Assembly: GCA_029238665.1 (NCBI GenBank)
Contig: JAQWFQ010000026.1
Span: forward strand, 62,001-126,000
Length of the DNA: 64,000 nt
Direction of reading: 5' to 3'
Source: Crocinitomicaceae bacterium
GTDB lineage: Bacteria > Bacteroidota > Bacteroidia > Flavobacteriales_D > Crocinitomicaceae
The position numbers were made by a program, and so were the translations under genes. How positions within the stretch are numbered: position 1 is the stretch's first letter; each line of letters begins with the position of its first letter. The notes under the pieces are model-generated. The model ran no database searches. It was given only the letters and a program-made list of their open reading frames with translations, and was not told where the DNA came from. This document shows, one piece after another, positions 4,609 to 40,251 of the stretch.

Positions 4609-7008
4609 AATAGAATTCGATATTGAACCAGGGGTAAAAATCCCGTTTGATAGATGGTTAATATTTCACCTGTTTTTTCATTGTATTTTTGCTGAAATAC
4701 ATTTTTTTGACTGGTTACATTTTGAAAATCCATTGCAAGTTCTTGCGTCATTTTAGATTGAATTATTTTTAATGCTAATCGTGTGTTGAGCTTTGTGTAT
4801 GGTTTAAATTGCCCTTCATTTACGTTGTTTAAATCCCTTACTTCTTCACCTGTGATAATGGATTCGTTGAGTAGGATAGGGGTGTACCTTCCTCCACCAT
4901 TCATTACAAATTTCACATCTGCAGCAATAGCAATAATGGGCTTAGCTTTCCCTTTTTTAGTTAACGGTTTTTTTGCTTTGAATCGGTATTCATAACCTGC
5001 GAGAACATTTGATGTGAAATTTCCGTTAAAGCTAGAGTTTCGCTCAATTCCGTCACTGCCCTTGTACTTTGATTCAAAGAGTGAGCCATTGAACATAAAA
5101 TAAAGTCCTTTGTCCATTCGCTTTTCAATTGTTAGTTCTACACCATAGTTAGTTCCTGAACCTTCGTTGACTAGTGAGTCTGGTATTGCTGAATAATACT
5201 CAGCACCAAAATTTAATGTAGAGTATGCGGAAGCAAAGCGTTGAACAGGAACATTGTGTATTAGCTGGCCATAAAGTTCTGTTTTAAAATGAATGCCATT
5301 ATTGAAGTAAAGATCATAGCCGATTACACCGTGTTGACTTTTGGTAAATTCTAGCTTGTTGTTCGATAAGATCGACTGATTAGGAACGATTTGGTTTTCT
5401 TGGTAGTAAACCTCTAAGGGTTGCATTTGACTGTGGTAGCCATAAGAGGCAGATATACGGTTGTTTTTATTGATGTTCCATGCTATTCCAAGACGAGGTT
5501 CTATGTTGTTTTGGTTGTCGATGAGTAGTTGTTGGTAGTGCAAACCTCCATTCAGTGTTATGTTGTCTGTGATTTTATACTGATAAGAGATGTAGGGTCT
5601 TAGTAGTCCTGTGTTTCCTTTTGTGTCATGTACTTTAATAAAGGTGTTTAGGTCTTGGTGATAAATACTATCGGTTAATGTGAAGAAGAATAAGTCAAAA
5701 AAGACCCCTGCTTTTATGTAGTGCTTGGAATTTAATTTGTTTGTGTAATGTACAGCTGTAGTTTGTCTTCCTTGCAGTCCATTTTTCATGTAGTTTGTGA
5801 ATGGGTTTTGTAGGTTGTGGTCTAAAGTGTCATTTTGTAACCTGTTTGTTGCGGCTTGAACTGCAACGGTAAGTTTTAAAAAGCTCTTCGTATTAAGTCG
5901 TTTTTTTATGATTTACACCAATAAACCCGGTGTGTCCTGAAAAATAAGTGTCGTCGCTTCCGTTGGCATAAAGGTCTTCTCCTTGAATTGTGTTTTAGGC
6001 TAAAAGCTCAACCTCACTTATGCCCCCAAGTCCAAAAATCGTTGTTAAACTATTTTTTGTTGGAATGTTTATTTTGAATGTTGCATCTTGGTGTTTTGGT
6101 ATAGACGATGATCCAAATTTGATTCCCATCAGGCTTAGCAATTTTAAAGCTGAATAACGATAGTTAATAGCAAAGGACGCCTTTGAGTTTTGAGAAAAAG
6201 GGCCCTCTACCATTCCTTCAAAACCATTAAATCCCATTTGAGCCAAAAATTCATACTTCTGGTTGTTCCCATTGCGTAAGTGTAGGTCAAAGACACCTGC
6301 ATTTGCATTGCCATATTCTGCAGGGAACGCACCTGTAAGAAAGTCTGATTTAGCTAACATGTTTGGGTTAATCATACTTACGGGGCCTCCGGTTGTACCA
6401 AAATTTGCAAAATGATTTGGATTAGGAATGTCTACACCTTCTAAACGGTATAGTACCCCCGTTGGTGAGTTGCCCCTCACAATAATATCATTCCTGGAAT
6501 CATCAGCCCCTTGAACTCCTGCAAAGTTTTGTGCCATTCTAGCAACATCCCCAAGGCTTCCTGCATAACGTTGCGATTCTTCAATAGAGAATGATCTTGA
6601 GCTGTTTGTTACAAGGTCGTTTACGAGTTTGTCTTGTTTACTTGCTTTTACATTTATTGCACCTAGGTTCTTAACGTAGTCAACCATTTTAACTTCAAGG
6701 TTAAGTTCTTTGGTTAATACTTCTAAGTTTGAAATAATAATTGGTTTGTAGCCGTAGTATGTGACCTGAATAGAATGTCGACCAACAGGGATGTTAGCTA
6801 GTTTAAACTGACCATCGTAATCAGTTAAAACCCTCTTTAGAGGATTGGTGTTTAAAAGAACCACTTTTGCACCTATTATTGGCTCTTCAGAGAGTTCGTC
6901 AATTACAGATCCGCGAATCGTTCCCGTTATTTCTTGACTGTAAGCTGAAGTGATAAATAATATTGAAAAACAGAGGAGAAACAGTTTCATGCATTTGATT
7001 TTCATCAA
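4605..7008 (-). pseudogene. TonB-dependent receptor, broken by a nonsense codon and a frameshift
   Basis: The N-terminal piece (7008-5995) has a signal peptide, a CarboxypepD_reg-like domain (about 27-105) and a TonB plug (about 125-230), then stops at TAA (5997-5995). The same frame continues past that stop for 33 more codons (NTIQGEDLYANGSDD...) to a run of seven A on the coding strand (plus 5901-5907). Removing one A joins this to the frame of the C-terminal beta-barrel piece (NTKSFLKLTVAVQAATNRL..., open to 4605). The whole span is 2404 bases, one more than 801 codons, which fits a single-base insertion. Intact relatives import large ligands across the outer membrane. Two separate lesions suggest a real pseudogene; the homopolymer alone could be a sequencing error, but the TAA could not easily be. 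Confidence 0.85.
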
Positions 7009-38127: not shown

Positions 38128-38997
38128 ATGACATGGGAAGACTTTCTTAATTATGAGCTATTCGAATTGGGTGAATTTGCATTGCTTACAGGCAATCTGT
38201 TTGCGGGTGTAATTATTCTTGTTGGTACATGGCTGTTGGTTGTGATGCTAAGAAAAGGGATCATGAAACCTCGATTCATCATTGATAAGATTGAAAGTAA
38301 GCGACGTATGTCGATGTTTTTAATCATGAAATACTTCATTTGGGTCATTTGTTTTGCAGTTGTACTCGAAGTTTTAGGGGTTGATATTACTGTTTTCTTA
38401 TTTGGTTCAACGGCGCTGTTGGTTGGGCTTGGGCTTGGGCTTCAAAATGTTTTTAAAGATTTAATTTCAGGGCTTTTTCTTCTTTTTGAGGGTACCATTA
38501 AGTTGGGAGACATTATTGAAGTTGATCAAATAATAGGAAAGGTGACGGAGATTAATCTTCGAAGCTCCCAAGTCTTAACTCGGGAAGATGTGATTTTTAT
38601 TATCCCGAATTCAAAGTTTATATCTGAAAAAGTGATTAATTGGACACATAACGATGAATATATTCGCTTTAGTGTTTTTGTTAATGTTGCTTATGGTTCA
38701 GATGTTGAATTGGTTTATACCTGCTTAGAACAGGCGATGAAAGAAAATAAATCAATTCGAAATAAACCAAAATCATTTGTTCGATTTGTTGATTTTGGAG
38801 AATCAGCACTGAAGTTTGAGATGGTTTTTTGGTCGAAAGAAATGTTCTCGATAGAAAACATTAAATCTGAGTTAAGAAGGACTGTTTACATTAAGCTAGC
38901 AGAAAACAAGTTAGAAATCCCTTTCCCTCAAAGAGATGTTCATATAAAAGGGGTAGAACAGGTGGTAACACTTAATCCTAACGAAAAAAACAACTAA
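38128..38997 (+). CDS. MscS-family mechanosensitive channel
   Basis: 289 residues. An N-terminal membrane anchor and two helices precede the pore helix TM3 (GSTALLVGLGLGLQNVFKD), which carries the Ala/Gly packing pattern. The beta domain (FLLFEGTIKLGDIIEVD, then TREDVIFIIPNSKFI) and the alpha-beta C-terminal part (AENKLEIPFPQRDVH) are typical of MscS. It opens under membrane tension to release solutes. It is divergent from efp and the gene ends at a 300-base gap holding a structured RNA candidate. Confidence 0.94.
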   Translation: MTWEDFLNYELFELGEFALLTGNLFAGVIILVGTWLLVVMLRKGIMKPRFIIDKIESKRRMSMFLIMKYFIWVICFAVVLEVLGVDITVFLFGSTALLVGLGLGLQNVFKDLISGLFLLFEGTIKLGDIIEVDQIIGKVTEINLRSSQVLTREDVIFIIPNSKFISEKVINWTHNDEYIRFSVFVNVAYGSDVELVYTCLEQAMKENKSIRNKPKSFVRFVDFGESALKFEMVFWSKEMFSIENIKSELRRTVYIKLAENKLEIPFPQRDVHIKGVEQVVTLNPNEKNN

Positions 38998-39105
38998 GAT
39001 TCATATTTCTTGAATCGATTTCTTTTCTGTAACATAATTATAGTTTATTTTTGTTGTACAATGCCACCAACAGAGTTTGGATAGTGCGTTTACTTCGAAA
39101 GAAGG

Positions 39106-39277
39106 CCCCATGCGGATACAATGAAGCTTAAAATTTTGTAATCAGGAGAGACTCAGAAGTAGAATGTCAGGCCGTAACGTTATGCGTAGGAAGTGATTTC
39201 TCAGCGGAACACAGATCATTTCAGCAATCCTAATCGTGTTATCTGAAGCTTCAGTTAACTCACCGCATGGGTTTTTT
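39106..39277 (+). ncRNA. Candidate structured RNA with terminator-like end, possibly 6S-like
   Basis: No ORF explains this stretch. CCCATGCGG (39107-39115) pairs perfectly with CCGCATGGG (39263-39271), followed at once by six T. Inside, TGAAGCTT (39122-39129) pairs with AAGCTTCA (39246-39253). Near the middle, GAAGTGAT (39190-39197) pairs with ATCATTTC (39215-39222, one G-U), and AGGA (39144-39147) can pair with TCCT (39228-39231). The result is a long rod with a closed base, a large central bubble and an apical hairpin, the architecture of 6S RNA; a 6S-Flavo class is known in flavobacteria, but membership was not tested. Direction is set by the T-run. The 5' end may lie upstream: TTTTTG at 39048 and AGAGTTTG at about 39072 form a weak promoter. 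Confidence 0.7.
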
Positions 39278-39297
39278 ATTACTATTTGGTTTGAGGT

Positions 39298-40251
39298 TTA
39301 CAATAGCTCTTCAATGATTCGATCCATTGAGTAACCCTCAGCTTCAGCGCGGTAGTTTTTAACGAGTCGGTGCCTTAGAATAGGTTTAGCAACAGCTTTA
39401 ACATCTTCAATGTCAGGAGAGTATTTACCATTAATAGCTGCGTGGCATTTTGCGCCAATAATTAAATATTGCGAAGCTCTAGGGCCAGCGCCCCAAGTGA
39501 TAAAGTCTTTTGTTAATTGAGGTGCTGTATTATCGTTAGCACGTGTTTTACCAACTAATTTTACGGCGTATTCAAGTACGTTATCTGCTACTGGGATTCG
39601 GCGAATTAGTTCCTGGTATTTAGTGATTGATTCGGCATTTAACATCTGGTTTAGCGAAACAGTCGAATCGTTCGTTGTTGACTTTACAATAGCCAATTCC
39701 TCTTCGTATTTAGGATAATCAACCCAAACATTAAACATGAATCGGTCAAGTTGTGCTTCAGGAAGAGGGTAGGTACCTTCTTGTTCAATTGGGTTTTGCG
39801 TTGCTAAAACAAAAAATGGTTTTGGTAATGAATATGTTGTTCCTGCAGCAGTAACACATTTTTCCTGCATTGCTTCTAGAAGAGCTGCTTGTGTTTTGGG
39901 AGGGGTACGGTTAATTTCATCGGCTAAAATGATGTTTGAAAATAAGGGACCTTTTAAGAATTTGAAGGTTCTATTTTCATCTAGAATCTCAGATCCTACA
40001 ATGTCAGAAGGCATTAGGTCAGGTGTAAACTGAACACGGTTAAATTGAAGCCCTAGGCAATCAGATATGGTGTTTACCAAAAGTGTTTTTGCTAAACCTG
40101 GCACACCAACTAACAGACAGTGCCCGCGTGAAAAAATAGAAATTAAAACTTGATCTACGACGTCCTCTTGCCCAACGATTACTTTATGAATCTCTGTTTT
40201 TAGTTTGTTGTAGTCTTGTACTAATTGATCTAATTCTGCTTTGTCAGACAT
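39298..40251 (-). CDS. MoxR family AAA+ ATPase
   Basis: 317 residues. Walker A GVPGLAKTLL, Walker B NIILADEINRTPPK, sensor 1 FVLATQNPIEQEGTYPLPEAQ and the arginine-rich sensor 2 region in the C-terminal lid (WGAGPRASQYLI) are the MoxR signature. MoxR proteins act as chaperones for metal-centre or membrane complexes, usually with DUF58 and vWA-domain partners. None of those partners is in the window; instead the gene is the last of an operon with three periplasmic folding factors. Confidence 0.95.
   Translation of the reverse strand: MSDKAELDQLVQDYNKLKTEIHKVIVGQEDVVDQVLISIFSRGHCLLVGVPGLAKTLLVNTISDCLGLQFNRVQFTPDLMPSDIVGSEILDENRTFKFLKGPLFSNIILADEINRTPPKTQAALLEAMQEKCVTAAGTTYSLPKPFFVLATQNPIEQEGTYPLPEAQLDRFMFNVWVDYPKYEEELAIVKSTTNDSTVSLNQMLNAESITKYQELIRRIPVADNVLEYAVKLVGKTRANDNTAPQLTKDFITWGAGPRASQYLIIGAKCHAAINGKYSPDIEDVKAVAKPILRHRLVKNYRAEAEGYSMDRIIEELL

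Follow-up and report, generated by a model that had tools for sequence, protein, structure and literature searches.

We conclude with high confidence, from sequence comparison, that the gap between an mscS-like gene and moxR in a Crocinitomicaceae genome encodes a divergent 6S RNA, and this RNA is very likely to be functional. 6S RNAs are widespread global regulators of transcription, which block the main transcription enzyme by mimicking an open promoter. Bacteroidota promoters are unlike those of E. coli, and the 6S RNAs of Bacteroidota are poorly studied. The kind of RNA described here is known, and the new part is the variant together with a hypothesis for how it is released from RNA polymerase.

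Structure and extent of the RNA gene

The stretch of DNA analysed (64,000 nucleotides, hereafter the window) carries the mscS-like gene (38128-38997, + strand; Pfam MS_channel) upstream of the gap and moxR (39298-40251, - strand; Pfam AAA_3) downstream of it. The original prediction described a gap lacking a credible open reading frame and holding a structured RNA, possibly of 6S type, at positions 39106-39277. Indeed, no open reading frame of at least 60 amino acids was found in the gap. Elsewhere in the window are an S15-Flavobacteria ribosomal protein leader (RF03161; 30877-30933, + strand), whose 60.9 bits exceed the cut-off, and a tRNA gene (RF00005; 55326-55399, - strand; 58.5 bits).

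The predicted closing stem, in which CCCATGCGG (39107-39115) forms 9 bp with CCGCATGGG (39263-39271) across 147 nt, is real and is directly followed by the T-run TTTTTT (39272-39277), which is conserved in homologs and is the probable point of termination. (All features of the RNA lie on the + strand.) This arrangement had been judged too unusual to arise by chance, and the counts agree: a 9-bp stem with arms 100-200 nt apart and an immediate run of five T residues occurs once in the window when both strands are searched, and Markov simulations of the gap produced it in 13 of 20,000 runs. The folding energy as a whole is not exceptional (z -0.95; 39 of 200 shuffles are equally or more stable), and thermodynamic stability was consequently rejected as proof of a structured RNA. 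Folding of the single sequence therefore could not decide the matter, whereas covariation does.

An alignment of 39 homologous sequences (A1) yields a consensus fold of 53 pairs in nine helices. The rod pairing is present in 93.2% of alignment cells, as compared with 31-50% for slid controls, and 37 of the 53 pairs have changed on both sides. Covariation among relatives is strong, and it is this comparison of homologs that confirms the structured RNA. Closing stem P1 (39105-39115 with 39263-39273) is 98.1% paired, with changes on both sides in 8 of its 11 pairs. The second stem that was predicted, an 8-bp pairing of TGAAGCTT (39122-39129) with AAGCTTCA (39246-39253), also stands as part of helix P2 (39121-39129 with 39246-39254; 98% paired), which covaries between families (GAAGCTT/AAGCTTC versus GAAACTC/GAGTTTC), but the 3′ half of the RNA has a second conserved pairing that excludes this stem. 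Beyond P2 lie the A/T-rich 5′ side of a central bubble (39130-39143), unpaired in the consensus fold, and an apical arm with internal loops (39144-39231) that comprises helices 6-9. The core of this arm is shared with Bacteroidales-1 RNAs (ATGGCGGGC...GGATTACA in relatives).

A -7 promoter box, TATTTTTG (39046-39053; Bacteroidetes consensus TAnnTTTG), precedes the RNA. The sequence TAnnTT occurs ~12 nt upstream of the start of the RNA model in 38 of the 39 homologs, as compared with 27% of shuffled 20-mers that carry it at any position. At transcription start sites of Flavobacterium psychrophilum, the TAnnTTTG box spans -12 to -5 (PMC9723704), and we therefore place the start of the RNA at 39058. 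The predicted transcript thus is ~220 nt long (39058-39277), sharing the 3′ end first proposed for it but beginning ~48 nt further upstream. Within this corrected extent, two covarying hairpins lie 5′ of the closing stem. The first (39060-39090) pairs 39060-39063 with 39087-39090 and 39067-39070 with 39077-39080, and is 89-93% paired in A1 with changes on both sides in all eight pairs; the second (39093-39104; CTTC-GAAA-GAAG) is 80% paired with such changes in all four.

The fixed offset of the box supports transcription of the RNA gene from its own conserved promoter. Since the RNA begins 60 nt past the mscS stop codon on the same strand and its folding energy is ordinary, the region might instead be viewed as an mscS terminator or 3′ UTR, or as a chance fold. 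However, neither an mscS tail nor chance fits well with a promoter box held at one offset in 38 of 39 homologs, or with strong covariation across 220 nt, which already refutes a chance fold. Furthermore, although the flanks are partly conserved in relatives, with EF-P and mscS on the upstream side and either moxR or a gene of the OmpA family on the downstream side, in several of them a methyltransferase gene rather than mscS immediately precedes the RNA gene. An origin of this sort is therefore extremely unlikely.

Relationship to known 6S RNA families

When positions 38800-39500 (701 nt) were compared with Rfam by using cmscan, both Bacteroidetes 6S families matched the gap, but each fell below its gathering score. 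Bacteroidales-1 (RF01693) aligns over its full length (1-179) to 39104-39278 with 25.2 of the 60 bits required (E 0.043 in 701 nt), and 6S-Flavo (RF01685) gives a weaker and shorter match at 39126-39251 with 26.4 of 85 bits (E 0.17). Direct assignment to either family was rejected because these scores are so far below the thresholds, yet the full-length match places the RNA nearer to Bacteroidales-1 than to 6S-Flavo. Two other names scored weakly in the region, GAIT and mir-684, are eukaryotic families with chance scores.

A search of the whole genome with RF01693 places its best site in the gap (E 0.03; next best E 1.9). In the same genome, RF01685 gives no match at E <= 0.001 and RF00013 (6S) gives none at E up to 10, which leaves the RNA outside RF00013, and searches with the three models found no second 6S gene. 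Same-family relatives reach up to 58.3 bits with RF01693 at identical boundaries. Among 99 relatives, one passes the Rfam cut-off for Bacteroidales-1 and none that for 6S-Flavo.

The connection to recognized families is made by R1, a covariance model built from A1. R1 has a single, full-length match in its own genome (203.5 bits) and matches in 65 of the 99 relatives, where a DNA search likewise detected clear homologs, covering most genomes of the same genus and several of the same family. Of the 31 genomes that R1 and RF01693 both match, 30 have the two matches at one site, which in one case lies above the Rfam cut-off (G081, 61.7 bits), and all three weak 6S-Flavo matches in relatives fall within R1 matches. 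In a class-wide sample of 198 genomes, five Bacteroidales-1 sites exceed the cut-off, of which R1 recovers four, and the sole above-cut-off 6S-Flavo site (G396, 96.8 bits) is matched by both R1 and RF01693. Altogether, the above-cut-off Bacteroidales-1 sites found by R1 are those of G081, G306, G340, G371 and G266 (61.7 to 184 bits). An alignment of 15 sequences from the three families is 88.4% paired, and both sides have changed in 47 of its 53 pairs; these values are biased towards the model because the alignment was fitted to it.

Because R1 matches above-cut-off members of both families, the RNA is shown by homology to belong to the 6S superfamily, even though its direct matches are sub-cut-off. 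The proposed 6S-type identity is thus supported by the location of the Rfam matches, by covariation and by the link through R1. It could still be argued that this member of the Bacteroidales-1 superfamily is a conserved regulatory RNA with a function other than that of 6S RNA, given that Rfam describes RF01693 only as ‘6S-Bacteroidales RNA suggested’ and that direct polymerase-binding data for RF01693 were not found in the literature examined. We consider this very unlikely. R1 joins Bacteroidales-1 with 6S-Flavo, which its discoverers list as a 6S RNA (PMC2864571), and Bacteroides thetaiotaomicron is reported to make a 6S RNA along with product RNAs (PMC7366714). The size (220 nt, for a class with rods of ~200 nt), the closing stem, central bubble and interrupted apical arm, and the single gene with its own promoter (one R1 match, conserved -7 box) all suit a 6S RNA, and the genome searches revealed no other candidate for this role.

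When named genomes were scanned by pattern, most of the carriers proved to be Crocinitomicaceae, Fluviicola or unclassified Flavobacteriales MAGs. In Yeosuana marina (L073) and UBA6231 (L062) the pattern was matched in part, and these cases were dismissed as chance (R1 E 0.14-0.32). Five contigs (L054, L038, L048, L064 and L071) carry the Crocinitomicaceae type of 6S RNA under labels that include Candidatus Planktophila, Chryseobacterium gleum and Chitinophaga pinensis; all are MAGs and are probably mislabelled or contaminating. R1 finds no match in the same-genus genomes G001, G003, G004, G005 and G032, most of which are incomplete drafts. G001 is 99% complete, and nearly all of its relatives have a match, so its gene is either lost or located in an assembly gap.

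Broken or partial copies of the gene were encountered in two relatives. In the same-genus genome G019, the gene is interrupted at GCAAT, close to the 3′ bubble: its 5′ part and promoter lie at the end of one contig (L140:2072-2260; G019:C55), and its 3′ part (L141:13688-13745; G019:C60) adjoins two tandem tyrosine recombinase genes (L141:13890-15744). This one genome suggests that a recombinase-bearing integrative element may use the 6S gene as its integration site. In G034:C1, an exact 108-nt copy of the gene interior (TTTGAAGC...GCAGTAAA) is located 2.1 kb from the complete gene (copy and gene at L142:4054-4234 and 6145-6364). The end of the copy nearly coincides with the G019 break, and no recombinase was found nearby.

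Existing Rfam models miss most of the Crocinitomicaceae 6S family, a gap that A1 fills. The alignment also suggests a single clan for 6S-Flavo and Bacteroidales-1, and it offers a release mechanism that can be tested.

A candidate release switch and comparison with other 6S RNAs

The second pairing available to the 3′ strand of P2 is a hairpin of 9 bp, GTTATCTGA-AGCT-TCAGTTAAC (39238-39259; 39238-39246 with 39251-39259). The sequence in the window itself forms eight of the nine pairs, with one T-T mismatch. Across A1, the hairpin is 94.9% paired (slid controls 20-57%) with changes on both sides in four of nine pairs. P2 and this hairpin are mutually exclusive, and since both pairings are conserved, both states appear to have been selected. 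They are also closely balanced, as evident by near-equal consensus energies (-85.1 and -83.6 for the two pairings) and by free folds of the 39 single sequences, which split 19 to 18 between them. When a 14-nt template on the 5′ strand of P2 is masked, the alternative hairpin is favored in 34 of the 39 sequences. This modeling outcome is consistent with product-RNA templating and release, and the masked segment (39116-39129), which comprises the 5′ strand of P2 and the preceding loop, is our proposed template.

A precedent is provided by E. coli 6S RNA, in which P2 unwinds as the product RNA is made, allowing a 9-bp hairpin to form in the 3′ bubble and drive release (PMC8876501). By analogy, the alternative hairpin, which likewise has 9 bp and excludes P2, probably acts as a release switch, a proposal that we hold with moderate confidence. 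Transcription of the 6S RNA would start at a sigma-A-type promoter of its own, located between mscS and moxR, and end at the T-run after the closing stem. The rod would then mimic an open promoter and occupy the RNA polymerase that carries the primary sigma factor. When nucleotides return, the polymerase would use the 5′ strand of P2 as the template for a short product RNA, freeing the 3′ strand to snap into the hairpin at 39238-39259, and formation of this hairpin would help eject the 6S RNA from the polymerase.

Polymerase recognition may involve the 3′ side of the central bubble, where CCTAATCGTGTT (39229-39240) is near-invariant in the 39 sequences and is unpaired from 39232 on. Its consensus, CCTAA[A/T]C[G/T]TGTT, agrees with the Bacteroidetes -7 box TAnnTTTG at four of six fixed positions. 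This partial resemblance is suggestive only, but 6S biology would have the motif substitute for the -7 element, and the 3′ bubble of E. coli 6S RNA holds a -10-like recognition element (PMC8876501).

The hairpin might also serve a true 6S RNA as part of its terminator or as an RNA-stabilizing element, with no role as a switch. Such an explanation would account for a hairpin that ends 12 nt before the T-run, and would agree with the fact that Bacteroidales members manage without one. However, between the hairpin and the T-run lies the 3′ arm of the closing stem, which in nearly all members runs straight into the T-run. Conservation of the excluded P2 pairing, which suggests selection of both states, likewise speaks against this explanation. 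We regard this explanation as tenable but somewhat improbable, and favor the release switch.

In sampled above-cut-off Bacteroidales 6S loci, which have the standard fold, the alternative hairpin is absent. Its status as a general feature of Bacteroidota was thus rejected, and it must be unnecessary for 6S function generally. The combined reading is that the 6S RNA of this lineage possesses a release switch in the style of E. coli, with a 9-bp hairpin in evolved balance with P2, and a bubble motif tuned to TAnnTTTG. Within this reading, the Bacteroidales loci without the hairpin imply that release hairpins were gained or lost more than once. We give the combination as a whole an even chance of being correct.

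Among named systems, Bacteroidales-1 is aligned colinearly over its full length, including the closing stem that runs into the T-run, P2, the apical core and a bubble motif AAxCxTGT. It differs in that its sampled members lack the 3′-bubble hairpin, and the Rfam model omits the two 5′ hairpins. With 6S-Flavo, the bubble and apical core align. The 6S-1 RNA of B. subtilis shares the overall rod and central bubble, but employs a central-bubble collapse helix in place of an extended 3′ hairpin, and both B. subtilis and Aquifex 6S RNAs are without a 3′-bubble hairpin of this kind (PMC8876501). E. coli 6S RNA (ssrS, RF00013) has no detectable sequence match to the RNA in the gap, whose host uses promoters of the TAnnTTTG type. 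Nevertheless, the two have in common the rod, closing stem, central bubble and apical arm, as well as a 9-bp 3′-bubble hairpin that competes with a downstream helix (PMC8876501).
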